Made by a program: the position numbers and the translations under genes. The notes under the pieces are model-generated. The model was given only the letters and a program-made list of their open reading frames with translations, had not been told where the DNA came from and made no database searches. Positions 4,711-52,696 of a DNA stretch of 64,000 nt are shown piece by piece. This DNA comes from Desulfurococcaceae archaeon MEX13E-LK6-19. Its GTDB lineage: Archaea; Thermoproteota; Thermoprotei_A; Sulfolobales; Desulfurococcaceae. Positions within the stretch are counted from its first letter, which is position 1. Each line of letters starts with the position of its first letter. The stretch is from NCBI GenBank assembly GCA_029637525.1, contig CP072660.1, positions 434,001 to 498,000 of the forward strand, written 5' to 3'.

Positions 4711-6162
4711 TTGAGTCATGGCATAAAGATTGAGAGAATAGGGAAGTATGAGTGGAGAGTACCCAAAGGAGCTAAACCATGTATGCTTGTAGACGGTATA
4801 TTGTTTGCTGACGAGTATCTGCTTAAGAAAGCTATGGAGGATTTATCGCTTGTACAACTCGCTAATGTGGCTTGTTTACCAGGTATACGTAGAGCAAGTT
4901 TTGCCATGCCCGATGTCCATCAAGGATATGGATTTCCTATAGGTGGTGTTGCAGGGTTTGATATAGAAGAAGGTGTTATAAGTCCTGGTGGTGTTGGATA
5001 CGATATTAACTGTGGTGTAAGACTTTTAAGAACAAATTTGGACTATGAAGATGTCAAGCCAAAACTTAAAGACTTAGTTATGGCTTTATTCCGCAATATC
5101 CCCAGTGGAGTTGGTAGTACAGGCAAGGTATCTCTTAGTTTTAGTGAACTAAACAAAGTACTTGATGAAGGAGTAGAGTGGGCGGTCTCAAGAGGTTTTG
5201 GATGGCCTGAAGATCCCGAACATATTGAGGAGCGTGGAAGCTGGAAAGTAGCAGATTCAAGTAAGGTAAGTAATAGAGCCAAGCAACGTGGCCATAACCA
5301 GCTTGGAACACTTGGTGCAGGAAACCACTTCCTTGAAATACAAGTTGTTGAAAAGATCTATGATCCCGACACAGCTAAAGTACTCGGGATTACGCATGAA
5401 GGACAAGTAACAGTAATGATTCATACTGGAAGCAGAGGGCTTGGACACCAAGTGGCCAGCGACTATCTCTTGATAATGGAGCGTGCCATGAGAAAATATG
5501 GTATACGTCCTCCAGACAGAGAACTTGCAAGTCTACCCTTCAATAGTAAGGAAGCACAAGACTACTTCAAGGCTATGGCGGCAGCAGCCAATTTTGCATG
5601 GACTAATAGGCAATTGATAACACACTGGACTCGTGAAAGCTTCAAGCAAGTATTCCATAAAGACCCTGACCAACTTGGTTTAGAAATAATATATGATGTA
5701 GCACACAATATTGCTAAAATCGAGGAACATGATGTAGATGGTAAGAGAGCTAAACTAGTTGTTCACAGAAAAGGTGCCACCAGGGCGTTTCCACCAGGGC
5801 ATCCTGAAATACCTAAGGATCATAAATCAATCGGGCAAGTGGTACTAATACCAGGTTCAATGGGGACTGCAAGCTATGTACTCGTAGGCGTGCCATCAGG
5901 TGCCAGAACATGGTATAGTGCACCTCACGGTGCAGGAAGATGGATGAGTAGACATCAAGCAATAAGATCATATAATCCAGCCAAGATCCAGGAGGAACTG
6001 GCCAGCCGTGGAATAATACTCAAAGCAGCAACAAGACGTGTTATAGCAGAAGAAGCTCCGGGAGCCTACAAGGATGTTGATAGAGTAGTACATGTAGCCC
6101 ATCATGTAGGTATAGCTAAGCTTGTAGTTAAACTAAGACCTATTGGTGTTGTCAAAGGATAA
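4711..6162 (+). CDS. rtcB: RtcB RNA-splicing ligase
   Basis: A 483-residue RtcB that joins 2',3'-cyclic phosphate and 5'-OH RNA ends, the ligation step of archaeal tRNA splicing. Key motifs are DVHQGYG (68-74), GGVGYDINCGVRLL with metal ligands Asp98 and Cys101, NHFLEIQ, HTGSRGLGHQ, and APHGAGRWMSR with the His that takes GMP. There is no intein. The start is TTG at 4711 behind GAAAGAGG. It shares this 6-kb region with an intron-bearing tRNA and a splicing-endonuclease subunit. Confidence 0.95.
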   Translation: MSHGIKIERIGKYEWRVPKGAKPCMLVDGILFADEYLLKKAMEDLSLVQLANVACLPGIRRASFAMPDVHQGYGFPIGGVAGFDIEEGVISPGGVGYDINCGVRLLRTNLDYEDVKPKLKDLVMALFRNIPSGVGSTGKVSLSFSELNKVLDEGVEWAVSRGFGWPEDPEHIEERGSWKVADSSKVSNRAKQRGHNQLGTLGAGNHFLEIQVVEKIYDPDTAKVLGITHEGQVTVMIHTGSRGLGHQVASDYLLIMERAMRKYGIRPPDRELASLPFNSKEAQDYFKAMAAAANFAWTNRQLITHWTRESFKQVFHKDPDQLGLEIIYDVAHNIAKIEEHDVDGKRAKLVVHRKGATRAFPPGHPEIPKDHKSIGQVVLIPGSMGTASYVLVGVPSGARTWYSAPHGAGRWMSRHQAIRSYNPAKIQEELASRGIILKAATRRVIAEEAPGAYKDVDRVVHVAHHVGIAKLVVKLRPIGVVKG

Positions 6163-7603
6163 GCCATAAGTAAAGAACAAGGTTTTCAAGTAAAACAAGA
6201 AGAATTTTTACATCAATTAATCCATAGCCTTTGGCTATTCTATTTGCTACAAGCCAAGCAGATACTGATGATAATAATACATAACCTGGAATAATGTTTG
6301 GATCTACTGGAAGATACTCTGATATATTCATAGTCTTCAACGCGTAGGCTATCGCGTATATTGTTGGAGGTAATAAGAGAACGTAGGCGTACAGTGTTTT
6401 TATACGATTGCTTAAGTTATCTCTAATTGATCTAATTCTTCTAAAGAATTTGAGTACATAACCAACATGTTTACTCTTACTCGAAGTTATTTCTAGAGGA
6501 GACAACAGGAGACTTAGAATCTTCTTTGACAATGGCGTAAGTCTAAGCAACTCATCTATACGGCAACCCTTTATACCTAATTTAATAAGTTTAGCTAATT
6601 CCCTAGCAATCCAGCTATACTCTGTTGTTCTGTAGGATAAATTCATTAATGCTATATCCAGGCTAAATCCTTGGTTTGATTCCATATAGATATCTTCGGA
6701 AAGCTCGTATACATGTTCTTCGGCGATATGTTTTTGTAAGCAATATTTCTTCCAAAAGATATGGCTTGATAAAGTGAATGCAGTGACAAGAATTATTGTT
6801 TGGATAAACATGTTATTTCTAAGAAAAACATACATTAGCGCTATTAACAATAATGACAAAAATGTGAATAACATGGGCTCTTCATAGTATAGTTTCTCCG
6901 ATATAAAGCCAGCCGCGAAATACCCGCCAAAACCGAGTAACATTAATATTAAGTATATTACGTTCGTTAAACTTGAAATGGATGGAAAACTAGATAGCAT
7001 AATTATTGAAAGAAGTATTACGAGATATGCTTCATAGAAATTCTCTACTACATTTAGTAAATTATTCATAGCATCCTCGAGTTTAGAAAGTTCTGCGTCA
7101 ATGTATGACTCTATATATTCTAAGGTATTTCCGGTGGTTTCAAGTATGCCAACATAGCCTTCTAGAAAGTTCTTGATTTTTGATGAAGGTAGACTCTTAG
7201 CAAGTATACTGAGTGCTTTATAGGAACTTCCTGTAATAGCCTCAATGCTTGTATATGCTTCTGCGAGCTCTTTATAGATACTAGGTAGTTTTATTTCGTT
7301 TCTACATGCCATTAAGAATAAGTCGCTTAATCCCAATCCGTTTGATTCTAAGCTCATTAGTATTGTTATGAAGTCTAAAAAGTCTCTATTCAACTTGTAT
7401 GCGAACAATTGTTTCCTAAGGAACCTGATGGTGTAGAATGATGAGAAGAATATTAAAGGTGATAAAGGGATGAGTAATGGTTCTTTGACGATAAATACAA
7501 CTAGGAGTAAGTATACTATTGTTGCAAAGGAGCATAATAAGAGTGTAGAGAAAACAGGGTTCTTAATTATTTTTAGATGATGTATTGAGTACTTCAACAA
7601 CAT
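6152..7603 (-). CDS. TadC/FlaJ-like pilus assembly membrane platform protein (T2SS F family)
   Basis: The 483-residue protein is polytopic, with hydrophobic helices near the N-terminus (about 15-65), mid-protein (about 200-280) and C-terminus (about 405-480). These separate two soluble segments, a duplicated arrangement typical of GspF/TadC/ArlJ platform proteins. Its 5' end overlaps the upstream secretion ATPase by 41 nt and its 3' end overlaps the convergent rtcB by 11 nt. It should anchor the ATPase at the membrane for pilin assembly. Identification rests on topology and context rather than a sharp motif. Confidence 0.75.
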   Translation of the reverse strand: MLLKYSIHHLKIIKNPVFSTLLLCSFATIVYLLLVVFIVKEPLLIPLSPLIFFSSFYTIRFLRKQLFAYKLNRDFLDFITILMSLESNGLGLSDLFLMACRNEIKLPSIYKELAEAYTSIEAITGSSYKALSILAKSLPSSKIKNFLEGYVGILETTGNTLEYIESYIDAELSKLEDAMNNLLNVVENFYEAYLVILLSIIMLSSFPSISSLTNVIYLILMLLGFGGYFAAGFISEKLYYEEPMLFTFLSLLLIALMYVFLRNNMFIQTIILVTAFTLSSHIFWKKYCLQKHIAEEHVYELSEDIYMESNQGFSLDIALMNLSYRTTEYSWIARELAKLIKLGIKGCRIDELLRLTPLSKKILSLLLSPLEITSSKSKHVGYVLKFFRRIRSIRDNLSNRIKTLYAYVLLLPPTIYAIAYALKTMNISEYLPVDPNIIPGYVLLSSVSAWLVANRIAKGYGLIDVKILLVLLENLVLYLWLIL

Positions 7604-9200
7604 TCTCCTCTATCGAGTAGAATCTCTGGATTTCTTTCGATAAATCATCTATATCGAAAACGCCTTTTTCTACTAGTTTTGACAGAAATAGTGTTCTGTT
7701 CTCTAATTCTTCTTCTAGAGTATCCTTATCAAGAACGTGTTTTAATCTGATGCTATTCCTCGCTATCCCTGATATATTTGATGGTGTAAAAGTATTTTCA
7801 TTTATGTTGTACTTCATGATAGGATATAGTTTTTTTGCATCAAAACTTAGTTCGTGTACTTCTTTTATTCTTCGGATACCGGTTGATCCATGTGGATCCA
7901 TTGATACGATTGTCCATATGCTTGATAACAGGTTTCGGGGGATAGATATTGGTGGCGCTACAAGTCTTTCAATAGCGGAAGTAGCGTCATCTGCATGGAA
8001 TGTAGCTATAGTTCCATGCCCTAACCGGGATGCCTGTATTAGGAGTCTGGCTTCTCTTCCTCTCACTTCTCCAACAACTATGTAGTCTGCTCTCCGTCGT
8101 AATGCGAACTTTAATAGTTTATATTCATCAATAGTTGTTTCTCCTAGAGAACTATATCTAACAACCAAGGGATCCCATAGTCCTGTAGTGCTTGTTATTT
8201 CTGGCGTATCCTCGATAGTGACAACTCTTCTGAAAGGAGGTATCAATGTTAATAGTGCTTGGAGTAAGGTTGTTTTGCCTGTACCTATCCCTCCGACAAT
8301 AAGTATGGAACCTCTCAGTTCTAGTACAAGCCACAGATAAGCTGCTAGTTGGGGGGATAACATACCATTGTTGATGACCTTGGTTATAGTCCAGGGCTTC
8401 CATGGCTTCTTTCTTATGACAAAACTAGTGCCATGTCTTGATACTTCCCTAGAGAACGTTAGGGCTATCCTTAACCCCTCTGGAGTCAGTCCTTCAGTAA
8501 CGGGCTGGGATATGCTCAAGTGTTTGCCTGCCTTTCGTGCAAGTGATAACGCTATTGTATCTACTGATGTAGGGGACAAACCTATGTTAGTTTTAATCCA
8601 TCCATACCACGTGTATTTTCGATGTATTACATATACTATCTTATCCTCTTGACTACCTGCTATTTCCTCAATATTGTGGTCAAGTATCAATGGATATAGA
8701 GGGCCATAGCCGCTTCTTAATTTGTTGTAATGATAAAGTATTGTAGTGGGATTAGATGTAAACACTTCTATCTTTTCAGGTATTTTGTCCTCAAGTAATT
8801 CAATAAAACACCTTAGTTCCTTACACTCATTACCATACTTGATAAAAACAGCTATTATGTCGCTTACTTCATCAACATTTATTATTGGTTCATCTACTAT
8901 ATAGTACAGTGTATCATCTTTCTTAGCTATGTATACTCTCAGTATATTGTTTACGTTATATTCTTCAAGTATATCAAATGATAAAATATTGTACTTTAAC
9001 CCATATTCTACAAGTAAGTTATTTACTATGCGTGTTAGCCCTTTAAGATCTATTATTTCGGATTCTAATCTACTTCTAAGGAATCTGTGTATATTAATCT
9101 TACATTTTTGTAAAGTATTATATAATTGTGTATGAAAAGACTTTATTTTTCTTAGATTAAAAAAGATATTGTTTTTTAAACTAAAAACATGCCTTATCAA
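7563..9200 (-). CDS. type II/IV secretion system ATPase (archaeal pilus assembly, GspE/VirB11 family)
   Basis: A 545-residue secretion ATPase. Walker A is GGIGTGKTTLL, the Asp box is IEDTPEI, Walker B is YIVVGEVRG, and the His box is GHGTIATFHAD. The roughly 200-residue N-terminal domain precedes the RecA-like core as in archaeal pilus and archaellum ATPases. It powers pilin insertion or assembly at the cytoplasmic membrane. It sits between the pilin and the TadC-like gene in a minus-strand operon. Without archaellum accessory genes nearby, a non-archaellum pilus is more likely. Confidence 0.9.
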   Translation of the reverse strand: MIRHVFSLKNNIFFNLRKIKSFHTQLYNTLQKCKINIHRFLRSRLESEIIDLKGLTRIVNNLLVEYGLKYNILSFDILEEYNVNNILRVYIAKKDDTLYYIVDEPIINVDEVSDIIAVFIKYGNECKELRCFIELLEDKIPEKIEVFTSNPTTILYHYNKLRSGYGPLYPLILDHNIEEIAGSQEDKIVYVIHRKYTWYGWIKTNIGLSPTSVDTIALSLARKAGKHLSISQPVTEGLTPEGLRIALTFSREVSRHGTSFVIRKKPWKPWTITKVINNGMLSPQLAAYLWLVLELRGSILIVGGIGTGKTTLLQALLTLIPPFRRVVTIEDTPEITSTTGLWDPLVVRYSSLGETTIDEYKLLKFALRRRADYIVVGEVRGREARLLIQASRLGHGTIATFHADDATSAIERLVAPPISIPRNLLSSIWTIVSMDPHGSTGIRRIKEVHELSFDAKKLYPIMKYNINENTFTPSNISGIARNSIRLKHVLDKDTLEEELENRTLFLSKLVEKGVFDIDDLSKEIQRFYSIEENVVEVLNTSSKNN

Positions 9201-9245
9201 AGTTCATACCTCATATTTTTGCTATATTATTAATTACTTTTACGC

Positions 9246-9656
9246 TTATGAGATCACTACTTCTGCTTCTATGGGTTCTGTTGATTGTCCGTTTCCATAG
9301 TATATTACTACGAAGTATTTAGTATTGGAATTGAATGTCAAGCCTGATGTGGAGAATGTTTTTGTTATGCTAATTGTTTCTCCTGGTTTGATCTCGGTGT
9401 TTATCGGAACGGTTATTCCTAGAGGATAGATTAAAGCAGCTGTTATGTTAACAGGTTTTGTGCCCATAGATGCTACCTTTATGTTAAGTAACCCTGTAGT
9501 TCCTGATACTACTATTCTTGCTGAAATGGGTGTTAACGTCACGTAGTCTTTAGGTGCTGATACCGTGTTTAGTATGTAGTTGTAGAGTATGAGCCCGCCA
9601 GCTATTGTTGCTACAAGGAGCATTGCTGTAGCTACGAGTGGTGATGCAGCCTTCAT
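9246..9656 (-). CDS. archaeal type IV pilin-like protein
   Basis: The N-terminus MKAASPLVATAMLLVATIAG resembles archaeal class III signal/pilin sequences: a short basic stub, an ASPLVAT-type motif and one hydrophobic helix. It is followed by a Thr/Val-rich beta-sandwich-like ectodomain. I take ATG 9656, with GGGGAT just upstream. A TTG at 9677 would add seven residues. Prepilin peptidase would cleave after the basic stub. It is first in the operon pilin, ATPase, TadC-like, so it is probably the major subunit. Family-level naming is not possible from sequence alone. Confidence 0.8.
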   Translation of the reverse strand: MKAASPLVATAMLLVATIAGGLILYNYILNTVSAPKDYVTLTPISARIVVSGTTGLLNIKVASMGTKPVNITAALIYPLGITVPINTEIKPGETISITKTFSTSGLTFNSNTKYFVVIYYGNGQSTEPIEAEVVIS

Positions 9657-9865
9657 TATCTTATCCCCATTATTCAATTCTAAGGTTGAAAAGGAGTTGA
9701 TTTATGAAAAGAATAAAATAGTCTATGAGGCGGGGGGTCTGGGGTGTAACTATTCTTGTGTTAATCTATAGTGTATAATCAGTTGACTCATGTGTTGAAT
9801 CCCCATTTTTATAAGGAACTAAAAGGGGATTAGACTATGAATAGGATAAAGGGTGATTACTAGCG

Positions 9866-11458
9866 ATGGCTGCAGAGAGTGTACAGAGAGAACAGTTCAA
9901 AGCATTAAGCCCGGCAGAATTCTTTGCCAGATACAGAGAGATCGCTGGGTTTTCCAATCCCGTAAGAGCTCTTTACCAGACTGTTAGAGAGCTTGTAGAA
10001 AACGCGTTTGATGCAACAGAAACCCATGGTATCCTGCCAAATATAAAAGTCATTATTAGACGTAGTGTTGAAAACCCTAGCCATTATACAATAACTGTTG
10101 AAGATAATGGTATAGGTATACCGCCACAACATGTACCTGAAGCCTTTGGTAGGGTACTATACAGCTCAAAGTATGTTCTTAGACAAACTAGGGGTATGTT
10201 CGGTCTAGGTGTTAAAGCTGCAATCATATATAGCCAAATGACTACTGGCAGAGCGGTAGAAGTAATAACTTCGCAGCCTGGCCTCAAAAGAATATACTAT
10301 TTCAAGATAAGGATAGACTTGCAGAAAAACAAGCCCATAGTCCTTGAGAGAGGGTCATGGAGGAAGTCTCGAGACTGGCATGGTACAATAGTATCGATCA
10401 CTATTGAAGGAGATTGGTCTCGTGCTAGGCAGAAAGTAATAGAATACATGAGAAGAACAGCTGTTATAACACCTTATGCTAACATAGTTTTCGTAACACC
10501 TGATGGGGAGGTGTACTACTACAAGAGAACTATTGAGACTCTACCGCCGCCTCCTAAAGAGGTAAAGCCTCACCCATATGGTGTTGACTTAGAGTATTTA
10601 AAGGCATTGAAGGAAACAACTTCTTCACCTACTATAAAGGACATGCTTGTTGAGAGCTTCCAGGGAGTAGGAGATATTACTGCCAGGAATGTCTTAAGTA
10701 GGGCAGGTATTGACCCGAATACCCCGCCTAAAGAACTCACAGACAACGACATGGTTAAACTAGCAGAAGCACTAAAGAGCTATCCTGACTTTAGACCGCC
10801 AAAAGCCGATGCTTTATCCCCCCTAGGTGAGGAAATCATCAAGGCTGGTTTACAAAGAATATTCAACCCAGAGTTTGTAGAGGCAGTTACACGTAAACCA
10901 TCGGCATATCAGGGACATCCATTTATTGTTGAAGTGGGTATTGCTTATGGCGGAAATATTCCTGCGAGTAATGAACCTATCCTCTTAAGGTATGCAAACA
11001 AAATACCCTTGTTGTACGATGAAAAATCTGATGTCTCCTGGAAAGTTGTCTCAGAAACTGACTGGAGCTTGTACAACGTGAGTTTTCCTGCACCGATAAT
11101 AGTTTTGACACATATATGTAGCACAAAGGTGCCATTTAAGGGAGTTGGTAAGGAGAGTGTTGCTGACGTACCTGAAGTCGAAAGAGAGTTAAGACTTGCC
11201 TTAAGAGAGGCAGCGAGAAGACTTAGACTATACCTATCGAAGAAACTTAAAGAAGAAGAAGTTAAGAGGAAACTCTCAGTTCTAGTAAGGTATATTCCGG
11301 AAATAGCTCGTGGATTAAGTATTATAGCTAAGGATATTATGGGCGATAATGTTGGTGCTATAGTTACCGAGAAACTAGTCAATATAGTATCCAAGAAGAC
11401 AAGTATTGATAAACAAGAGATCATGGAATACCTTAAATCAGTTGAAGTAGGTGTGTAG
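9866..11458 (+). CDS. top6B: DNA topoisomerase VI subunit B
   Basis: The 530-residue ATPase subunit of type IIB topoisomerase VI. Bergerat/GHKL motifs are visible: VENAFDATE (N-box), DNGIGIP (G1), and RGMFGLGVKAAI (G2). A helix-two-turn-helix region and transducer domain follow. Subunit B binds ATP and gates DNA; subunit A cuts. A TATA-like TTTTTATAAGG sits near 9806-9816 and a GGGTGAT ribosome site precedes the ATG. The subunit A gene starts two bases after this stop, so they form an operon. Confidence 0.95.
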   Translation: MAAESVQREQFKALSPAEFFARYREIAGFSNPVRALYQTVRELVENAFDATETHGILPNIKVIIRRSVENPSHYTITVEDNGIGIPPQHVPEAFGRVLYSSKYVLRQTRGMFGLGVKAAIIYSQMTTGRAVEVITSQPGLKRIYYFKIRIDLQKNKPIVLERGSWRKSRDWHGTIVSITIEGDWSRARQKVIEYMRRTAVITPYANIVFVTPDGEVYYYKRTIETLPPPPKEVKPHPYGVDLEYLKALKETTSSPTIKDMLVESFQGVGDITARNVLSRAGIDPNTPPKELTDNDMVKLAEALKSYPDFRPPKADALSPLGEEIIKAGLQRIFNPEFVEAVTRKPSAYQGHPFIVEVGIAYGGNIPASNEPILLRYANKIPLLYDEKSDVSWKVVSETDWSLYNVSFPAPIIVLTHICSTKVPFKGVGKESVADVPEVERELRLALREAARRLRLYLSKKLKEEEVKRKLSVLVRYIPEIARGLSIIAKDIMGDNVGAIVTEKLVNIVSKKTSIDKQEIMEYLKSVEVGV

Positions 11459-11460
11459 CC

Positions 11461-12624
11461 TTGTCAACAGTCTCTAAAGTAGATCTTGAAGTAAGAAGAC
11501 GTGGTATAAAGATATTTCAAGAGAAGTTTAAGGAGCTTATACAGAAGATTATAAAAGAAAAAAGTCCATCGCTTATCATACCCAAGAGAACATTAAGCAA
11601 TACTATATATGATGAACGCCGCAAACTTCTTCTCCTTGGCCCAGAGATGCTTAGAAGAAGCTTTCTAGACGTAAACGAAGCGAAGAAATTCATGCAAACA
11701 ATATTGATGGCATCCATTATCTATGAGGCTTTGGTAAATAACGAGTATCCGACAATACGTGACTTATACTATAGAGGTAAACATACAATAAGATTTAAGG
11801 ACTTCAAAGGACGTTGGTCGGAAGAAAATACTTGGGACGAGCAGCGTGAATCAGATTCTGTGATAAGAGACATAGAAGTCTACCTAGGGCTTCTTAGAGA
11901 AGAGTTGCTTATACTTAGTAAAGAAAAAGGGAAAGTAGTTGGCAATATGAGGATCAAGAGCGGAGATGACATCATTGATCTAAGTAAAATGGGGCATGGA
12001 GCTTATGCTATTGAGCCTACTCCAGACTTAATAGAATTCATAGATGTTGATGCAGAATTCGTTCTAGTAGTCGAGAAAGATGCTGTATTCCAGCAGCTAC
12101 ATCGTTATGGATTCTGGAAGAAGTATAAGGCAATATTGATTACGAGCGCGGGACAGCCAGACAGAGCGACAAGAAGGTTTGTAAGGCGCCTTAGTGAAGA
12201 ATTGAAGTTACCAATATACATACTGACTGACGCGGATCCCTATGGATGGTATATATATAGCGTCTTTAAGATTGGCTCGATAACTCTATCATATGAAAGT
12301 GAAAGATTGGCAACCCCAGATGCAAAATTTATTGGTGTAAGCATGACTGACATTTTTGGTGATAAACAACGTAAAAAGAAGCCATGGCTCACAGAAAAAG
12401 AAGCCAAGAACTATATAATCAAGGCAAAAGATGCCGACATAAAAAGAGCTAAGGAACTCCTTAATTATAGATGGTTCCAGACACCTGAATGGGAACGCGA
12501 GATAAAAATATTCCTCGAAAAGAAAGCTAAACTTGAGATTGAAGCCATGGCTAGCAAGGGCCTTAAGTTCTTAGCTGACACCTATATACCACAGAAAATA
12601 GCCACCAAAGATTGGATAGAGTAG
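11461..12624 (+). CDS. top6A: DNA topoisomerase VI subunit A (Spo11-like)
   Basis: The 387-residue DNA-cleaving subunit. Its 5Y-CAP domain contains RDLYYRGK with the active-site Tyr at 103 or 104. The Toprim domain holds VVEKDAVF and TDADPYGWY with acidic metal ligands. It uses a TTG start at 11461, two bases after top6B. With subunit B it relaxes and decatenates DNA. Length is normal for archaea. Confidence 0.95.
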   Translation: MSTVSKVDLEVRRRGIKIFQEKFKELIQKIIKEKSPSLIIPKRTLSNTIYDERRKLLLLGPEMLRRSFLDVNEAKKFMQTILMASIIYEALVNNEYPTIRDLYYRGKHTIRFKDFKGRWSEENTWDEQRESDSVIRDIEVYLGLLREELLILSKEKGKVVGNMRIKSGDDIIDLSKMGHGAYAIEPTPDLIEFIDVDAEFVLVVEKDAVFQQLHRYGFWKKYKAILITSAGQPDRATRRFVRRLSEELKLPIYILTDADPYGWYIYSVFKIGSITLSYESERLATPDAKFIGVSMTDIFGDKQRKKKPWLTEKEAKNYIIKAKDADIKRAKELLNYRWFQTPEWEREIKIFLEKKAKLEIEAMASKGLKFLADTYIPQKIATKDWIE

Positions 12625-18974: not shown

Positions 18975-19976
18975 CTAGTGTATAATGCAATGAACTATTA
19001 ATTGAATTAATGAGTCGCCAATCAATAAGAGTACTATATATCCTGCTAGTAAGAGTACAATGAAAGGTACACCATAAGTGACCCATATATAGTCGTTGGC
19101 ATGTAGGTAACCTTTCTCTATAAGCTCCTTTATATGTTTTTGATCCTCCTTATAATCCTCTTCAATATTAAATGAAGTCCTATATTCCACTATGACAGTA
19201 TTATTACTGATCTTAAATATCTGAAGCGGAAATATATGTTTTGACATAAGAAAATCCTTTATCTTCATGGGTCTTCCTGTGGATAGTATTATACTCCATT
19301 TCAATATGCCTATATTCTTGGGAGGAAGAACATCTTTGTATACTAATAAGTTCCTAATAATATTGAATGGTATATATGCCGCCATTACTAAGTTTGCATA
19401 CAAAAGTAAAGGTATTATAGGCGGGACGTGTATCGTGGAAATACTATACAAAGACATATTGTATATAAGATCGTTGTAAAAAGTGATCGACAAACCAGAT
19501 ATCGCAAAAACATCGGCTAAACCAAAGAGATCTATTTTGTATAAAATGTATGAAATCAAGGGACCTATGAGAAGTGATAAAGAAAGATACGTGAGCTCTA
19601 GGTAAATATTCCTCTTAGTTACTATAATTGAATAAGCAAATAATAATGAAAATAAGATTAAGGAAGCAGAAATAAATATGTAAATGTCTCTATCAGGGAT
19701 CTCTCTGTATTTCAGATCTAGATAACTAAAGTATACTAGAAATACTGTCATGACTATTGTTGAAGCATATAATATTACATAACCGTCCACTGCAGACCCC
19801 CTACTATTTATCTGCTTTTTATAAAGCACTAAACCAATTATGTATGTACAAGTAAGGAGATAATAAGTAGAGGCGTCTTGCTTTATGAGAATACTAAAGA
19901 GGCAAAGTAGAAATGTAAGGACTTTAATTAATTCTCTTAAACCACTCTGTAGTATTAACATAAATACATTAAACAC
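18975..19976 (-). CDS. archaeal type IV prepilin peptidase family protein
   Basis: The 333-residue protein has about seven or eight hydrophobic helices. The first catalytic motif of A24 prepilin peptidases appears as YLDLKYREIPD. The second, usually GxGD, appears as GLADVFAI and keeps the Asp. It would cleave the basic leader of prepilins. The pilin operon at 6.1-9.7 kb is its likely client. A soluble segment of about 80 residues lies between the last helices. Which pilin it processes is inferred from proximity. Confidence 0.75.
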   Translation of the reverse strand: MFNVFMLILQSGLRELIKVLTFLLCLFSILIKQDASTYYLLTCTYIIGLVLYKKQINSRGSAVDGYVILYASTIVMTVFLVYFSYLDLKYREIPDRDIYIFISASLILFSLLFAYSIIVTKRNIYLELTYLSLSLLIGPLISYILYKIDLFGLADVFAISGLSITFYNDLIYNMSLYSISTIHVPPIIPLLLYANLVMAAYIPFNIIRNLLVYKDVLPPKNIGILKWSIILSTGRPMKIKDFLMSKHIFPLQIFKISNNTVIVEYRTSFNIEEDYKEDQKHIKELIEKGYLHANDYIWVTYGVPFIVLLLAGYIVLLLIGDSLIQLIVHCIIH

Positions 19977-39489: not shown

Positions 39490-41400
39490 CTATGAAGGAA
39501 ACTTTTGTAAAATACTTAGGCTATGACTTGTATCTATGATGTATAATGTGTTGTCAATAATGGTTACGGCATTTAGTTTTCCTAGTGAGGATATAGCTAA
39601 TTTGACGGCATATACCTTTGAATAGTCAGTGTATCCTGATAATGTTTTTGAAATGTAATCTAAATTCCTGATTTCGGTTAGTCCAAAGACTATTTTTATT
39701 GAAGAATTCACTATTACTGCTTCACTTGTATCAAGAGGTTGCTGAGTTATTGCAAGTATTCCTAGGCCGTATTTTCTGCTTTCCATAAAGAGTCTGTTAA
39801 CGAGTGCACGACTACGATTTCGCTTGAAGAGGAGGTGGGCTTCATCAATAACCAGTAGTATTTTGTTAGATATTGTTGTTGTGTACATTGCTCTAATTAA
39901 TCTATGTAAGAATGTATCAACATACATTGCACGTACTTGGTCGCTAGGTAATGATGCTAAAAGTATTATTGTGGGTTTTGTGAGAATTTCATGAAATGAT
40001 ATTTTTGTTTCAGCAAAAACATCTTGCGTAAGCATCTTTATATATGGCCTAATCCTTTTATATTGATCCTCATATATGCCTTCGCTTATGAAATTATCTA
40101 TAACATCTAATACATCACCAAAATTTGGCGGCTGCTTTGACCAAGTTGAAGGATCGTCGGTAAGTATCCCCTTGAGTTCGTATGTTTTGATGAAAATTTC
40201 TTCGAGTGCATTGCGTTGTATGTATCCTAAGTTAAATATAGATTTTATTGTATCAGCTAGTTCTATAGCTCTTTGTTTAGGAGAAGTATTCGGGTCGAGT
40301 TCAAAGGGGTTAATGGATGCCTTATAAGAATCTAGTATATTGAGATCTTTCCCTAGAACATCCATGAGGTCAAGGTATTCATTGTGATGATCTAATACTA
40401 AGAAAGAATAGCCATAGTTTTTGTATGCTTGGAAAATAATTGACTTAGCTAGAATAGATTTACCCATACCGCTAGCGCCGAAAATTGATATATGCATATT
40501 AGGAATAGATTCGAGGTCTATACTCAGTTCTCCCCTCGTTTCTTGCCAAAACCATGTCTTTCTTCTTGTGTGTTTCACTTTTTCTATTATGGGATCTTGA
40601 TTGATCTTGGTATAGATGCGTCTAGGCTTATCATATACTAGTATAGCTTGTTTATTGCCTAGAATAATCTTCTTTTTATACAAATTACTAAAGGCAAGTC
40701 CGTGGCCGGTACCTAGACTTGCTAGTAATAGTGGTATAGCTGGTACTCCATACCATGAAGTAGCTAGCACTATAGATGACTGTAATGTTGTGTTAATCCT
40801 TTTAGACAGCATGGTAAGTATAGATGTTATTGGAAGAATTAATAGTATTCCAGTAACATAAATACTTTCACTGCTTGGAACACTTATATTGAGAAAAGTG
40901 AGTATAAACAATATTATCCCAGATATACACAGATGAAGTGCAAGCTGTGATATTGAATCCAAATTAAGGTCTAGGAATTTTTGACGATCTTTTAATAAAG
41001 AAATCAATGTATCTTCTTTTACACGATATTTCTTCATCTTATACATAATGGAAATTGCTGGTGCCATTAGTACGAGTATAATTATGTAGAAAATCTCAAT
41101 AAAGGGTACTGGCTTGAGTTGATGAGAGAGCGTTCCTGTGAATACTATTAACTGTAATAGAAAGTATATTGTCCCTAGCAGAAAAGATCTGCTAATGAGC
41201 ATTAGTATCAATGCTATAATAAACGGAATTATAAAAAATACCGTGAAGATCCTCATGAGTACGCTGATGTAATCTAGTGTGAATATTGTAGACGATTGAA
41301 TTATGGAAGGACTATAAACATTTATCAGAACAACAATAAGTGTAAGAACTAATAAGGCTAGCCAGGAGATCTCGGATGGTTTTTGTTGATTGTTATTCAT
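39490..41400 (-). CDS. membrane-anchored HerA/VirB4-type ATPase
   Basis: The 636-residue protein has seven or eight N-terminal hydrophobic helices (to about residue 245). A FtsK-HerA ATPase domain follows. Walker A is FGASGMGKS, followed by VLDHHNEYLDL. Walker B is LLVIDEAHLL, then ITQQPLDTSEAV. Such proteins pump or move DNA. The membrane anchor suggests transport across the envelope rather than end resection with NurA. It is distinct from the ATPase at 51035. Confidence 0.75.
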   Translation of the reverse strand: MNNNQQKPSEISWLALLVLTLIVVLINVYSPSIIQSSTIFTLDYISVLMRIFTVFFIIPFIIALILMLISRSFLLGTIYFLLQLIVFTGTLSHQLKPVPFIEIFYIIILVLMAPAISIMYKMKKYRVKEDTLISLLKDRQKFLDLNLDSISQLALHLCISGIILFILTFLNISVPSSESIYVTGILLILPITSILTMLSKRINTTLQSSIVLATSWYGVPAIPLLLASLGTGHGLAFSNLYKKKIILGNKQAILVYDKPRRIYTKINQDPIIEKVKHTRRKTWFWQETRGELSIDLESIPNMHISIFGASGMGKSILAKSIIFQAYKNYGYSFLVLDHHNEYLDLMDVLGKDLNILDSYKASINPFELDPNTSPKQRAIELADTIKSIFNLGYIQRNALEEIFIKTYELKGILTDDPSTWSKQPPNFGDVLDVIDNFISEGIYEDQYKRIRPYIKMLTQDVFAETKISFHEILTKPTIILLASLPSDQVRAMYVDTFLHRLIRAMYTTTISNKILLVIDEAHLLFKRNRSRALVNRLFMESRKYGLGILAITQQPLDTSEAVIVNSSIKIVFGLTEIRNLDYISKTLSGYTDYSKVYAVKLAISSLGKLNAVTIIDNTLYIIDTSHSLSILQKFPS

Positions 41401-46557: not shown

Positions 46558-46980
46558 ATGAGGGCTTTATCGAGCTATGTATCCTTAATTATAACATTAT
46601 CTATGGTGACACTGGCTTCTACAGCTGCATTTGTCAGTATAAGAGAATACTATAACAAAGCACTACATAACGTTTACAATGGTGTATATGATACAATTAT
46701 TGTTGAGAAATATAGTGACAATATTAGTGTTATTATCATAGGTTTTGTCGATGAAATAACCATAAGCAAGATATCATTGATGAAAAATGGAAGCATAATA
46801 TTAGTCGTAGAGAATACGACATTGTATGAAGATCAAAGGGTTTTCATAGAATTCATTAATGCGACAATCAGCGAACAAGGCATTGTTTGTAACGAACATA
46901 GTTCCATAATAATCATGTTAAAAGATCCTACGATAATTGTGATCATAAATACAGATAGAGGTGAGTACTGTATTGGCTAA
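46558..46980 (+). CDS. small membrane-anchored pilin-like surface protein
   Basis: A 140-residue protein with one N-terminal hydrophobic helix (SLIITLSMVTLASTAAFVS) right after a short basic stub, then a beta-rich extracellular domain. It has several NxS/T sites and two Cys. It may be a pilin-like subunit, though the stub is not a clear class III signal. TTATTTTTAAAG near 46527-46538 may be the TATA box. Overlaps the 726-residue gene by up to 20 nt. Confidence 0.55.
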   Translation: MRALSSYVSLIITLSMVTLASTAAFVSIREYYNKALHNVYNGVYDTIIVEKYSDNISVIIIGFVDEITISKISLMKNGSIILVVENTTLYEDQRVFIEFINATISEQGIVCNEHSSIIIMLKDPTIIVIINTDRGEYCIG

Positions 46981-49141
46981 AGGTATTTCGCAGTATCCTA
47001 TGGTCTATACAATCATAGCGTCAATGCTTATGATATCATTACTGACAATTATTGCCATGGAATCAGTAACTGATACTATCCGGTTCAGCGAAAAAATTGC
47101 TGGGCACGAAGATGTATTAAACAATATAGCGAAATATATTGTTATAAATGGCTCATTATACTTAATTACATCAATAGAATACGTTGGTGAATACTACGCT
47201 CTATATATAGATGCAAAGAGTAATAGCACTATAGTAAACAAGCTAAATACTGTTGTCTGGAAGGAGAATTATTTACTGATTGGACCTATTAACACTTCAT
47301 ATGATGAAATAGTATTGATAAGACATTACAAAACACCAGCAATTATCGATATTCTTGTTAAAAAACATCTTAATGCAACTACTGAAGAGTACATTCTCAA
47401 GAATACAATAATTCCTCCATCAATTTCTTTAAACATGTTAGTAGGTGATATATCAGTTCTCAGAACAATTAATGGTAGATATGAGTATTTCTTCGTATCC
47501 CCAATGATTAATCCTTACAAAAGAGTTATTGTGTATAAAAATAGCTATTACGTATTAAATAAAACATATGATCCGGTACTAGTAAATGATTTTGTAAAAG
47601 AACTTGAGTTTGCTAGTATTAAACAAGTAATTAATTGGGGTGACTTTAAAAAATCCACGTATAATGACTCGGCATTGCCTTATGTTCTAAATACCTATGG
47701 GAGAATAAAATACGTCAACAACATAACTATACTCTCTAATAATACATACTATATCCCATTGTCTGAACCATGGTATTTTAATAGCATAGAAAGTAACTAT
47801 TACTTCTACATAACAGAACATAGGGTCTTGGGCAACTTTAATTTAAATAGAATTAACTGTTATAACAAGCTTTTCTTGAACTTTACTCATAGTGTGGATA
47901 AGATCGTTATTCAAGGAGTTGATACAGGCACTTACTATAGGGCGACGGTTTATGTTAGTTATAATGTCTTAGTATATGTTGGCTCAACGAGGTACTCATT
48001 TAGTTTCTATGACTCATTTTATACGTCTACTCCTGCTAATGATGTTTTCGACAAAATTATTAGCTTAGATCTAGAATTACCTACCAATATATCTGATACT
48101 GTTTCTGTTGAAACGTATATTAGCTACACGGTATACATAACAAATCCTACTAGTGAAAATGTCAACGTTACACTTGTAACGAGTATTAATGGTAATTACA
48201 ACGATACTTATTGTGTAAAGGTATTGTCTTCAGGAATAGTGTCTCTCTATGGAGACTCTCTGGCAAATGAGTACAAGTTTTATGTAGATAACGATGGTTA
48301 TAGGAATGTTTCTATAGAGATAATCCTAGAGTTAGATAAGCCGATAAATGTGACGGTCTATATTGATGGATCAAAAGTCATTAATACTAGCTGTAGTTTT
48401 CTCGAAGTAGGTTACTATGGAAAGCTAGTATTAGTTAATGCATCTCGTGCTTTACCGGATAGTGTTATTGATATAAATGATCTGATTATTGAAAATATTA
48501 ATGTAACTAATGGGTTAGTCTATAGAATTAATGACTTCATCGGTATATATCTAAGTAATTCTACTGAAACAATATTAAAATATACTGTACCAGGTGTTGT
48601 CAATGTATCTGGTACCTCTATAGAGTTCTATGGAGATACCATAATCATAATAGATCTCTGGAATAATCTTACCATGATATACTCTGATTCATTTATGACA
48701 GTAAACTCTTCAAACATACAATTTGTTCAAAATACTTTAATAGAGAATGAAATAAACTTTATTGAGCCCTTGCTCGTGTTTGAAAATGTCAGTGTACCAT
48801 TATTGGTGAGAATAGTCTATATAGATAATACGAGCATACAATATACCATAACACCAATGGATGATACTATCAGAATAAAGATAGATCCTAAGCCAATATC
48901 TTATTTAGAAATAAAAATTTTGGAGAATACTAGTGATATAGACTTATACATATCGTATAAGAACAGATGGCTAATGGTTCTTAATGGTCAAGTAATTGCT
49001 ACTAGTGAGGGATATCTTGACCCCTCTGTAAAGGCGGTACAGACATTTCTAGGAAAATACCTGGTATTACAGCGAGACGATTCAATTACTGTAATACCTT
49101 ATACAGTTTCACTCTACCCCCTCCATTATATAAGCGGCTGA
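46961..49141 (+). CDS. large N-terminally anchored surface glycoprotein-like protein
   Basis: A 726-residue protein. The start is GTG 46961 or TTG 46973; the latter has GAGGTGA better spaced. One N-terminal hydrophobic helix (YTIIASMLMISLLTIIAM) is followed by a long Asn/Thr/Tyr-rich beta region with many NxS/T glycosylation sites. No C-terminal anchor. No named domain, but the layout suits a surface adhesin or minor pilin. It lies 19 nt upstream of the CedA1-like gene, so it may belong to that cluster. Confidence 0.6.
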   Translation: MSTVLAKGISQYPMVYTIIASMLMISLLTIIAMESVTDTIRFSEKIAGHEDVLNNIAKYIVINGSLYLITSIEYVGEYYALYIDAKSNSTIVNKLNTVVWKENYLLIGPINTSYDEIVLIRHYKTPAIIDILVKKHLNATTEEYILKNTIIPPSISLNMLVGDISVLRTINGRYEYFFVSPMINPYKRVIVYKNSYYVLNKTYDPVLVNDFVKELEFASIKQVINWGDFKKSTYNDSALPYVLNTYGRIKYVNNITILSNNTYYIPLSEPWYFNSIESNYYFYITEHRVLGNFNLNRINCYNKLFLNFTHSVDKIVIQGVDTGTYYRATVYVSYNVLVYVGSTRYSFSFYDSFYTSTPANDVFDKIISLDLELPTNISDTVSVETYISYTVYITNPTSENVNVTLVTSINGNYNDTYCVKVLSSGIVSLYGDSLANEYKFYVDNDGYRNVSIEIILELDKPINVTVYIDGSKVINTSCSFLEVGYYGKLVLVNASRALPDSVIDINDLIIENINVTNGLVYRINDFIGIYLSNSTETILKYTVPGVVNVSGTSIEFYGDTIIIIDLWNNLTMIYSDSFMTVNSSNIQFVQNTLIENEINFIEPLLVFENVSVPLLVRIVYIDNTSIQYTITPMDDTIRIKIDPKPISYLEIKILENTSDIDLYISYKNRWLMVLNGQVIATSEGYLDPSVKAVQTFLGKYLVLQRDDSITVIPYTVSLYPLHYISG

Positions 49142-49160
49142 TATTCTCCGGGGAGATGGA

Positions 49161-49427
49161 ATGAGTGATATTATATCGTTTATTCAGGATCTAGTACTCA
49201 ATGTAATGATAATAGCGTGGATAATGTTCTTTCTGACATGGTCTGTAGGATGGGCATTGAAAGGTTCGCCAATACCTTTCCTTAGAGTTAAAAGAACAGG
49301 ACATAGATTCATAGAGGATGCTGTATGGGCGGCATTTTGGCTAGCCATGGGTAGTACCGTATTCGCCCTAATAGCATATATTACAGCACAAGTACAACAA
49401 CCATTTCCGCCGCCACCATCACCATAA
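49161..49427 (+). CDS. cedA1: CedA1-like two-helix pilus protein
   Basis: An 88-residue protein with two hydrophobic helices (VMIIAWIMFFLTWSVGW and WAAFWLAMGSTVFALIAYI). They are joined by a basic loop, ALKGSPIPFLRVKRTGHRFIEDA, and followed by a Pro-rich tail. This pattern matches CedA1 of the crenarchaeal DNA-import (Ced) system as I remember it; CedA1 forms the Ced pilus in Aeropyrum. GGGGAGATGGA precedes the ATG. Followed by CedA-like and CedB-like genes. Confidence 0.72.
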   Translation: MSDIISFIQDLVLNVMIIAWIMFFLTWSVGWALKGSPIPFLRVKRTGHRFIEDAVWAAFWLAMGSTVFALIAYITAQVQQPFPPPPSP

Positions 49428-49480
49428 GTGAATTGCTCGGACTGATACTACTGAAAAATTGTTTGTGGGGTGATATTTTT

Positions 49481-50878
49481 ATGGAGTACGAGTTTCTCAT
49501 AATAGCATTCTATTTAAGCATATTATCTTACTATTTGGGAGTACTTCTCTATATGATTCCATTACCGTTTTATGGCGTAAAGAAGTGGGCTCCCACATTA
49601 ATGGTTGATGGAGTATTTTCTGCAATACTGATCTTTTCATACACATTGCTCTTGAGCATCATAAATTATCTAGGGTCTTTATTTGGTAGTGACTGGAATA
49701 GCTTCTTTCTTTGGCTAGGATTCAAGACGAGTATTGTTGTTACTCTTCTTGTTATTCTTAAGTTTATTGGCGTCAGTCTTAGTTTGAGTGGTCTACAGTT
49801 CATAGCAAACTCTATAATATCATCGCTCATCAATAACTTAACCAATATACTATTTCTGTTGCTTTCATTATCGATAGCTTCATCAATAATAGTAACCTAT
49901 GGGTCTAAGATACTTGCTTTAGGAATACTGTTGCACTCTATTCCCTTTAGATTAACTAGAGTTAGTGGCTCTATGATGATAGCGGTCATAATGGTTTTCT
50001 CTATAGGACTACCGTTAATGCCTGCTTATGTCGAAACAGTAAGTCAACCACCTGGTTTTAATGAGTCGATTCTAGTTGAGTATGGTGTTGCTTATGGTTA
50101 TATAAACATTGTAGACTTGTTGAATTCATCAGTATCTTATCCCGTCATTAACATTTATACCTCTGATAAAGACGTGTTATTGGCAAAATATCTTGGTAAT
50201 CGAGATGGTGTTATTGATGCATCAAGCCCTGATAAGGGGTTTCCATCAACTAAAGAGTATATTGTATTAGTTGAATATGGCGGTCTCCAATACTGGTTGA
50301 CTATTGATCCATTGAAGGATTATGTTGATGCGGGGGATGGTAAGTATAATTTATCTATAGTGCTTCCTATAATACATATTAATGATTTACGATATATTTA
50401 TCTAGAGAATTGTGAATTAAAAGATATTGTATTAGACAAGATCATATATTTTACGGTTTATGTTGAAGATAAAGGTGTAGTATACATAGTTGTAAACTAC
50501 GATGATAATGCTTATGTGTTTATTGATGGTGTATTAAGGGATCCTGATGTAGTTGTTGTTTATAATTGGTATGGAATAAACTTTAGGGCATTAAAATACT
50601 TTATTGATAGTGGTGTCCATAGTTTCAGGGTTTACGTGAAATACAGTAGTCTTGACCTCAAGCCCAATGTTGAAGAAGTGTATTATGTGAGGGATTCTGC
50701 GGGACTTTATCAATTTGAGCCAACAGATCTTGTTAAACCCGTCGTTTATATGGTATTTAACTTGTTTATAGCTCCTTTAACATACATAGCGATCCTCTTC
50801 TCTGCTTCGATAGCTTTAGCTAGATTGCTTGGAGGGGCTGCCCCAAGCATTGCTAGAATAATACTCGTGGGTGCATAA
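49481..50878 (+). CDS. cedA: CedA-like polytopic membrane protein
   Basis: About 465 residues from ATG 49481, which has GGGGTGAT 6 nt upstream; a TTG at 49433 is also open. Six or seven hydrophobic helices fill the N-terminal 200 residues, an extracellular beta-rich domain follows (about 200-410), and one or two helices lie at the end. YGVKKWAPTLMVDGVFSAIL and the position between CedA1-like and CedB-like genes support CedA, the import channel. A VirB6-like role is an inference. Confidence 0.7.
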   Translation: MEYEFLIIAFYLSILSYYLGVLLYMIPLPFYGVKKWAPTLMVDGVFSAILIFSYTLLLSIINYLGSLFGSDWNSFFLWLGFKTSIVVTLLVILKFIGVSLSLSGLQFIANSIISSLINNLTNILFLLLSLSIASSIIVTYGSKILALGILLHSIPFRLTRVSGSMMIAVIMVFSIGLPLMPAYVETVSQPPGFNESILVEYGVAYGYINIVDLLNSSVSYPVINIYTSDKDVLLAKYLGNRDGVIDASSPDKGFPSTKEYIVLVEYGGLQYWLTIDPLKDYVDAGDGKYNLSIVLPIIHINDLRYIYLENCELKDIVLDKIIYFTVYVEDKGVVYIVVNYDDNAYVFIDGVLRDPDVVVVYNWYGINFRALKYFIDSGVHSFRVYVKYSSLDLKPNVEEVYYVRDSAGLYQFEPTDLVKPVVYMVFNLFIAPLTYIAILFSASIALARLLGGAAPSIARIILVGA

Positions 50879-50880
50879 AA

Positions 50881-51048
50881 ATGAGAACCCCTCTAGAAAA
50901 AATTATAGTGTTTATGATAGTTGTTATTGTTCCTTTATCTTATTTACTAATAGACCCTGTATCGGCAACCTTGATCAATGTCGTATTTCTTTCATTAATA
51001 TTTATATTAAAGATTCTTGTGAGGATGATTATTAGTGAAGATCGGTGA
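50881..51048 (+). CDS. 55-aa two-helix membrane protein (CedA2-like candidate)
   Basis: ATG 50881 lies two bases after the CedA-like stop and reads 55 codons. There are two hydrophobic helices (IIVFMIVVIVPLSYLLI and LINVVFLSLIFILKILV) with basic flanks. Its end overlaps the CedB-like GTG by 14 nt. The Ced system is known to include a second small two-helix protein, CedA2; position, size and topology fit, sequence identity unproven. Confidence 0.65.
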   Translation: MRTPLEKIIVFMIVVIVPLSYLLIDPVSATLINVVFLSLIFILKILVRMIISEDR

Positions 51049-52696
51049 TATCCTCAGAAAAATTATTGGCGATGAAATCGAGGTTCATATAAAAAATAGT
51101 TACCTAATGGTTCATTTTGGGAAGAAGATCCATTTAATAAAATACTTGATTGTAGAAGAAGCAGAGTTTGGTCTCAGAGATATGGATCCTCAAGAACTTT
51201 ACACAATACTTGAAAGATTCACAGCAGTTTTCTCAAAACTACCTCCGGGAAGCGAGGTCAAGACGATAAGACTTGCAAGAGACCTTAGGAAGATTAGAAG
51301 AAATATAGAGAACGAAATGCTTAACATCAAAGCTGCTATGGAGACCATAAAGGAGCCTCATGTGATGAAAAAACTTGAGCGACGACTGGATATACTTACG
51401 AGAATTTACAGTAGGATTCTTTCTGCAAATGACATAGTAAGGGTTGTAACAGTGTTCAAGATAAGAGGAGAGGCGGATCCAAATAGTATTAATGATGTGA
51501 TTACATCAATGGAACAATTGGCAGACATTATTAAATCTTTATTTTCTTCTTCCTTAGGCTTCAAGATCAGAGATGCCTCTGAGAAAGAGATTAAAGACAT
51601 TATAAAATATGAGATGGGGATAATAGACAGCTCACCTGTCAAGTCGATTTTAATTGAGGACAAAAGACTTGCGTTTCAAGCACCGCTACCAAGGGTCAAG
51701 AAGCCAGCTGTAGAAAATTATACAGGTATATACGTGGGAATAGATATTGATACAGGCTGGCCTGTGTTTATCGACAAAGAAATGTTTCATAAACACATAT
51801 TAATAGTAGGTCCTACAGGAAGAGGGAAAACTTCAACACTAGCACTTATCATAGAGAACTATATATCATTGTATGGTAACACTCCATTAGTCATAGATTT
51901 CAAGGGAGATTTATCTGAACTTATTGATGATAAATTGGTACCGAAAGTAACTCCTCTCGAAATACCCTTGAACATACTTGTAAAACCAGCAATAGTTTCA
52001 TCAATAGACTGGGCTCTAATAGTATCCGATATACTAACTAAAGTAATGAAGATTGATCCGCGGAAAGCATCTAATATAGTGAAAGTAATACTGGGTGGAT
52101 ACATTGAGAAATATATTAACGACCCTAAGAAGCTGCTTCTAGACCCCGACTTATCTATTTTGTCAAGCGTTATTGACTTAATAACTACAACTCCTAACTA
52201 CGATAAAGCTATAGAGTATATTAGTAAAGGTGCACTTTTCGATCTCAATGGTTATGGAACGGCGTATCAAAATATCTATGGTGGTCTAATACTTCATTTA
52301 GCAGCATATTTAGTGTCTTCAGGTAAGCTTAGGGATAAATTAATAGTTATTGATGAAGCTTGGCGTATAGGCAGCGTCAAGGCTCTCTATACTCTTATTA
52401 AAGAAGGGCGAAGCAGACGTGTAGGAATAGTTCTCGCTACTCAAAACATTGAGGATATACCTGGTGAGATCATTGAAAACATTCATGTACTAATAGTGTT
52501 TGGCAGTCATAGTGATGAATACCTATACAAAGTTTCCCGCATATTAGGTCTCAAGAGATCAGTAATAGAAAGTCTCAAGAGACTCTCTATAGGTGAGGCA
52601 CTAATACTAAATTCTCTTGATCCACATCCCGTCTTTGTAAGAATAGAACCACCATCATTATTGAAGAAAAGAGCTAAAACTTGGAAACAATATTAA
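51035..52696 (+). CDS. cedB: CedB-like HerA/VirB4 ATPase
   Basis: A 553-residue ATPase. A helical N-terminal region of about 240 residues is followed by Walker A VGPTGRGKTS and VIDFKGDLSELI. Walker B is LIVIDEAWRIG, then LATQNIEDIPGEI, typical of VirB4/HerA proteins. No clear membrane helix is present. GTG start at 51035. With the CedA-like and CedA1-like genes it forms a DNA-import module for recombination repair. Name given by context. Confidence 0.72.
   Translation: MKIGDILRKIIGDEIEVHIKNSYLMVHFGKKIHLIKYLIVEEAEFGLRDMDPQELYTILERFTAVFSKLPPGSEVKTIRLARDLRKIRRNIENEMLNIKAAMETIKEPHVMKKLERRLDILTRIYSRILSANDIVRVVTVFKIRGEADPNSINDVITSMEQLADIIKSLFSSSLGFKIRDASEKEIKDIIKYEMGIIDSSPVKSILIEDKRLAFQAPLPRVKKPAVENYTGIYVGIDIDTGWPVFIDKEMFHKHILIVGPTGRGKTSTLALIIENYISLYGNTPLVIDFKGDLSELIDDKLVPKVTPLEIPLNILVKPAIVSSIDWALIVSDILTKVMKIDPRKASNIVKVILGGYIEKYINDPKKLLLDPDLSILSSVIDLITTTPNYDKAIEYISKGALFDLNGYGTAYQNIYGGLILHLAAYLVSSGKLRDKLIVIDEAWRIGSVKALYTLIKEGRSRRVGIVLATQNIEDIPGEIIENIHVLIVFGSHSDEYLYKVSRILGLKRSVIESLKRLSIGEALILNSLDPHPVFVRIEPPSLLKKRAKTWKQY

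Follow-up and report, generated by a model that had tools for sequence, protein, structure and literature searches.

The 64,000-nt window, which corresponds to positions 434001-498000 of a complete 1.91 Mb genome, contains a locus whose genes identify it as a Ced operon for DNA import, from a heat-loving archaeon of the Desulfurococcaceae type, and two pilin-like surface genes, here called S1 and S2, directly precede it. The explanation that we favor, with middling confidence, is that S1 and S2 represent an Ups-like recognition module linked to Ced. In Sulfolobales, Ups and Ced are both needed (PMC7064770, PMC9905601, PMC11868833). Some Crenarchaeota, for example Aeropyrum, have Ced but no Ups, which leaves the recognition of partners before DNA exchange unexplained (PMC9905601). 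A pilin pair within the operon, a nearby Ups-like locus and a damage-type promoter box that is conserved outside Sulfolobales would together give a testable answer; the same features would enlarge the known damage regulon of archaea and link DNA exchange to S-layer identity.

The ced operon and its two upstream surface genes

The following features were found at the locus:

46558..46980, + strand: S1, short type IV pilin-like protein (140 aa)
46961..49141, + strand: S2, long pilin-like surface protein (726 aa), predicted to be heavily N-glycosylated
49105..49122, + strand: damage-type promoter box AGTTTCACTCTACCCCCT, then TATA-like TTATATAA, inside the 3' end of S2
49161..49427, + strand: cedA1, pilin of the DNA-import (T4SS-type) pilus (NF041797)
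49481..50878, + strand: cedA, VirB6-like channel (NF041796)
50881..51048, + strand: CedA2-like ORF between cedA and cedB (55 aa, two TM segments)
51035..52696, + strand: cedB, HerA/VirB4-type ATPase (NF041017, Pfam DUF87, AAA_10)
39490..41400, - strand: CedD-like ATPase with six N-terminal TM segments (NF053655)

S1, S2, cedA1, cedA, the 55-aa ORF and cedB are on the same strand and are separated by short gaps or overlap. The overlap of S1 and S2 is 20 nt, and the 19 nt between the S2 stop codon and the cedA1 ATG (49142-49160) confirmed the spacing given in the original prediction. Its order of CedA1-, CedA- and CedB-like genes was likewise confirmed by a search with Ced profiles, in which CedA1 reached 125 bits against NCBIfam NF041797, above the curated cut-off of 100. 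CedA (NF041796, E=4e-38 across residues 3-188) and CedB (NF041017, E=6e-31) were clear matches but stayed under their curated cut-offs of 330 and 700 bits, respectively; the gene order and neighbors of both are consistent with a Ced system. For cedA, an alternative TTG start is located at 49433, upstream of the ATG start at 49481. The genes listed in the prediction were all present, while the 55-aa ORF and the box in the end of S2 had been missed.

The 55-aa two-TM ORF is the positional counterpart of CedA2. A hydrophobic ORF of 44-66 aa was observed directly 3' of cedA in most families, Sulfolobales included; CedA2 has been reported as not conserved outside Sulfolobales. The CedD-like gene, on the opposite strand and 5 kb upstream of S1, matched the CedD model NF053655 with E=2.5e-22, under the cut-off. 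A similar CedD-like gene was seen just upstream of cedA1 in another genome (L060). CedA proteins from beyond Sulfolobales carried an extra region of ∼240 aa, probably extracellular, and a last TM segment. They were usually 447-497 aa long in the non-Sulfolobales loci that were read, and the Sulfolobales CedA model, with its 259 positions, does not include the extra region and last TM segment.

Compared with the known Ced systems of Sulfolobales and Aeropyrum pernix (CedA1, CedA, CedA2, CedB, CedD), the locus has the same CedA1-CedA-CedB order, a small two-TM ORF after cedA, a CedD-like ATPase nearby and an ANTTTC-type box before cedA1. It differs from them by the pilin-like S1-S2 pair in front, the C-terminal extension of CedA with its additional TM segment, and the sub-cut-off scores of CedA, CedB and CedD.

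The N-termini of S1 (MRA/LSSYVSLII) and S2 (LAKG/ISQYP), and those of other S genes (LFKG/LTSYP, AKA/LSEYP, RRG/QAALTA and KKG/LSNLISALL), were of the archaeal prepilin type. This pattern fitted 9 of 11 intact S genes vs. about 8 of 824 other genes, a background of ∼1%. In both window proteins the predicted prepilin-type N-terminus is followed by a hydrophobic helix, as in type IV pilin-like proteins. This single N-terminal helix per protein is also the basis on which they can be called membrane-anchored, as had been predicted. The description of the pair as glycosylation-rich applied to S2, which has 24 N-X-S/T sites vs. 10.2 ± 2.8 expected from shuffled sequences and a site density ∼15 times the median of the window's genes; in S1 the enrichment was weak (4 sites, P=0.015).

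Neither window protein had a family match in Pfam or NCBIfam. The S1 protein of a related genome (G226, locus L070) matched UpsB with E=3e-5 and 24 bits, under the curated cut-off of 70, and no UpsA or UpsB cut-off was passed by it or by the window S1, which gave no match. When an S1 profile was searched against 229 genomes, the best match outside its own members was a true UpsB (150 bits) that adjoins UpsA and an endonuclease III, and the N-terminal part of the S2 profile of family f11 returned true bindosome pilins (BasB). Ups models cross-match other archaeal pilins, and the Ups-type scores were all under the curated cut-offs. The structure models showed a long helix followed by strands, with mean pLDDT values of 50.5 and 37.4; in S1 the helix comprised 42 N-terminal residues and the confidence past it was low. 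Based on the prepilin N-termini, the matches to UpsB and bindosome pilins and the sequon count of S2, we read both proteins as type IV pilin-like and S2 as a long adhesin-like pilin.

Recurrence of pilin-like and stalk genes upstream of cedA1

The CedA1 model had matches in 177 of the 229 genomes of the class, and the survey was based on the 164 genomes in which 1.4 kb or more of sequence before cedA1 could be read. A pilin-like gene ending no more than 70 nt from cedA1 was present in eight of these (6 genera, 3 families); in the window's family (f1), such genes precede cedA1 in 3 of 28 genomes. Five genomes from two families have a short pilin-like gene followed by a long one, the two overlapping or almost touching and the pair ending 20-67 nt before cedA1: the window's genome, G073, G090, G226 and G227. 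The third family has a single long pilin-like gene 29 nt before cedA1; such single genes were found in G066 and G067, and a C-terminal part was visible in G068. S1/S2-like genes were absent from the other 156 ced loci. The conservation next to ced genes on which the original prediction had staked its case was therefore mostly lacking, but the arrangement recurs across families.

The S2 proteins of the window and of G090 are homologs (BLAST E=5e-7 in a very small database), and S2 homologs were found in the same position in L032 and L041. Clear S2 pairs were G073-G090, G226-G227 and G066-G068. Profile comparison found no sequence similarity between the three S2 groups, which have only architecture and position in common. 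No window-family S2 was found away from ced in the 229 genomes, the three profile hits being the sequences from which the profile was built. Because most ced loci are without them, S1 and S2 are not core parts of Ced. Judged from these comparisons, the S1-S2 module is accessory, fast-evolving and recurrent, and it was either ancestral with frequent loss or gained more than once.

A second kind of surface gene was found in the same neighborhood. Tetrabrachion is the S-layer stalk protein of Staphylothermus marinus, and in this organism its gene, recognized by a match to the crystallized coiled coil, is located directly upstream of S1-S2-ced. The same place is occupied by a tetrabrachion homolog in G073 (42% identity over 1270 aa) and by stalk-type relatives in G226 and G227, so that four of the five S1-S2 loci have such a gene directly upstream of S1. 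In G182 (putative Pyrolobus) and G005, genes for stalk-type giant proteins precede cedA1 without S1 or S2. The tetrabrachion and stalk-type genes upstream of S1-S2-ced or of cedA1 alone are at L041:758-5341, L032:2-4837, L070:1703-5671, L072:3-620 and L068:3246-7730. No stalk gene was present beside S1-S2 in the window, nor at the g32 locus, where a long pilin-like gene adjoins ced. S1 and S2 themselves differ from tetrabrachion in having no coiled-coil stalk and no C-terminal TM segment, which places them outside the tetrabrachion/stalk family. The genome nearest to S. marinus (putative S. hellenicus) had no match to tetrabrachion, S1 or S2; its ced genes are otherwise intact, and the ced region shares 88% identity with its S. 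marinus counterpart.

The damage-type promoter box

In Saccharolobus islandicus, the Orc1-2 damage-response element has the motif ANTTTC (PMC9738581). The box and the TATA-like element of the window fall in the final codons of S2, so that cedA1 is probably transcribed from a promoter of its own within S2, and co-transcription of S1-S2-ced would be possible but not required. Across genomes, ASTTTCR was found ∼40-78 nt before cedA1 on the sense strand in 53 of 169 genomes vs. 2 on the antisense strand. The sign-test value of P=9e-14 overstates independence, as the genomes are related; the strand bias and the position are nevertheless strong. Within the window's family, 25 of 28 genomes, from 9 of the 10 genera, have the box before cedA1. 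It resembles the Sulfolobales DDRE, with ASTTTCR followed by a YC-rich tail, and occurs at a fixed distance in several families outside Sulfolobales.

Upstream of S1, the box occurs in reverse orientation in the window, G073 and G090. The box was also present before the UpsA-like pilin gene of a locus linked to topoisomerase VI genes in two putative Staphylothermus genomes and G073, and, carrying one mismatch, in the window; the corresponding place in G066, G226 and G227 did not show it. Over whole genomes, matches to the strict pattern were barely above the reversed control and, for this reason, no regulon was drawn.

Ups-like pilus genes and the proposed role of S1 and S2

Type IV pilus machinery is encoded elsewhere in the window:

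6152..7603, - strand: pilus platform protein, UpsF/TadC type (PF00482, 25.6 bits, cut-off 25.2; 7 TM segments)
7563..9200, - strand: pilus assembly ATPase, UpsE/ArlI type (PF00437, 98 bits)
9246..9677, - strand: UpsA-like pilin (NF046073 UpsA, E=6e-7, nearly full length, under the cut-off)
18975..19976, - strand: prepilin peptidase, PibD/ArlK type (PF06847, 79.5 bits)

The pilin, ATPase and platform genes adjoin the topoisomerase VI genes (region 6152-12624), and the same block beside topoisomerase VI genes was found in the relatives that were read. The locus is named Ups-like rather than Ups because the Ups-type scores were under the curated cut-offs. No UpsE ATPase or UpsF platform gene is located beside S1 and S2, and the UpsA/E/F-like locus is 37 kb away. 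Two further pilus loci are present elsewhere in the genome.

In the explanation that we favor, the prepilin peptidase would trim S1 and S2. The UpsB-like S1 and the long, glycosylated pilin-adhesin S2 would then join the Ups-like pilus or remain anchored at the surface, where they would mediate the recognition of partners of the same species. CedA1, CedA, the CedA2-like protein, CedB and the CedD-like ATPase would import partner DNA for repair, and S1/S2 and Ced may be induced jointly. S1 and S2 may in this way be the partner-recognition device that this archaeal group was thought to lack. As in the Ups system of Sulfolobales (UpsA, UpsB, UpsC, UpsE, UpsF), there are prepilin N-termini, a UpsB-like protein, a UpsA/E/F-like locus in the window and, in relatives, a damage-type box before the UpsA-like pilin. 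In contrast to Ups, the pilin genes are divided between the ced operon and the locus beside topoisomerase VI, S2 has five times the length of Ups pilins, and the scores are under the cut-offs. The small number of carriers (8 of 164 loci), the sub-cut-off Ups scores, the dissimilarity of the S2 groups, the poor structure models and the separate cedA1 promoter count against an Ups-like module, and the tetrabrachion-type neighbors of S1 also fit a surface-gene cassette.

Such a cassette, consisting of an S-layer stalk and associated pilin-like proteins that came to lie before cedA1 by genome history and have no role in DNA exchange, is the strongest of the alternatives, and we consider it possible though clearly less probable than the Ups-like module. 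It would account for the stalk-type genes upstream of S1 in four of five loci and before cedA1 alone in two more genomes, for the joint absence of tetrabrachion, S1 and S2 from the genome nearest to S. marinus, and for the box and TATA of cedA1's own. A tetrabrachion-type neighbor was rejected as proof of an S-layer cassette, since pilin-like genes are found without it in the window and in g32. Both of these loci, with pilin-like genes beside ced and no stalk gene, argue against a cassette, as does the shorter distance of S1-S2 to cedA1 (20-67 nt vs. about 146-185 nt to the stalk gene). Further, a tetrabrachion gene beside S1-S2 would likewise agree with a recognition locus, given that Ups pilins of Sulfolobales have been proposed to bind S-layer glycans (PMC7064770; also PMC9905601, PMC11868833).

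According to the original prediction, S1 and S2 would be physical parts, such as tip or adhesin, of the CedA1 T4SS-type import pilus. Their adjacency to cedA1 on the same strand in eight genomes agrees with this, and bacterial conjugative pili do have a tip adhesin, VirB5. However, the pilin-type N-termini and the similarity to UpsB and BasB point to another pilus class, namely a type IV (Ups-like) pilus distinct from that of CedA1, or to an adhesin anchored in the membrane, and the ced genes of the genome nearest to S. marinus are intact without S1 and S2, one of 156 such loci among 164. We therefore regard a role within the CedA1 pilus as improbable. Even less credit is given to a chance placement of stand-alone pilin genes beside ced: about 1% of the genes in ced neighborhoods look pilin-like and pilin genes of Crenarchaeota commonly stand alone (PMC4858521), but chance would hardly give two families, between which S2 is no longer recognizably similar, the same short-then-long pair at comparable spacing, nor a window-family S2 that occurs nowhere except beside ced.

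Beyond the Ups-like module itself, we tentatively suggest that some Desulfurococcales could possess a complete mating locus, with the stalk protein as recognition target, the glycosylated pilin-adhesin pair as recognition device and Ced as DNA conduit, all in direct succession and under a damage-response box in common with Sulfolobales, although we think this less likely than not. If true, such a locus would supply the missing Ups function where Ced was reported without Ups, and its surface genes would decide mating compatibility. Tetrabrachion adjoins S1-S2 in S. marinus, and a homolog or stalk-type relative does so in three other S1-S2 loci, in contrast to the window locus.

The arrangement of S1 and S2 is also similar to that of crenarchaeal type IV pilus loci (bindosome and Desulfurococcales types, PMC4858521) and of L191, in which a short pilin stands beside a long glycosylated pilin-like protein. 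It differs from the former in that S1-S2 has no adjoining ATPase or platform gene and ced is the neighbor instead. L191:10081-15777, in the window's genome, encodes a prepilin-like protein of 1898 aa with 31 sequons, beside a 172-aa pilin, an ATPase and a platform protein.
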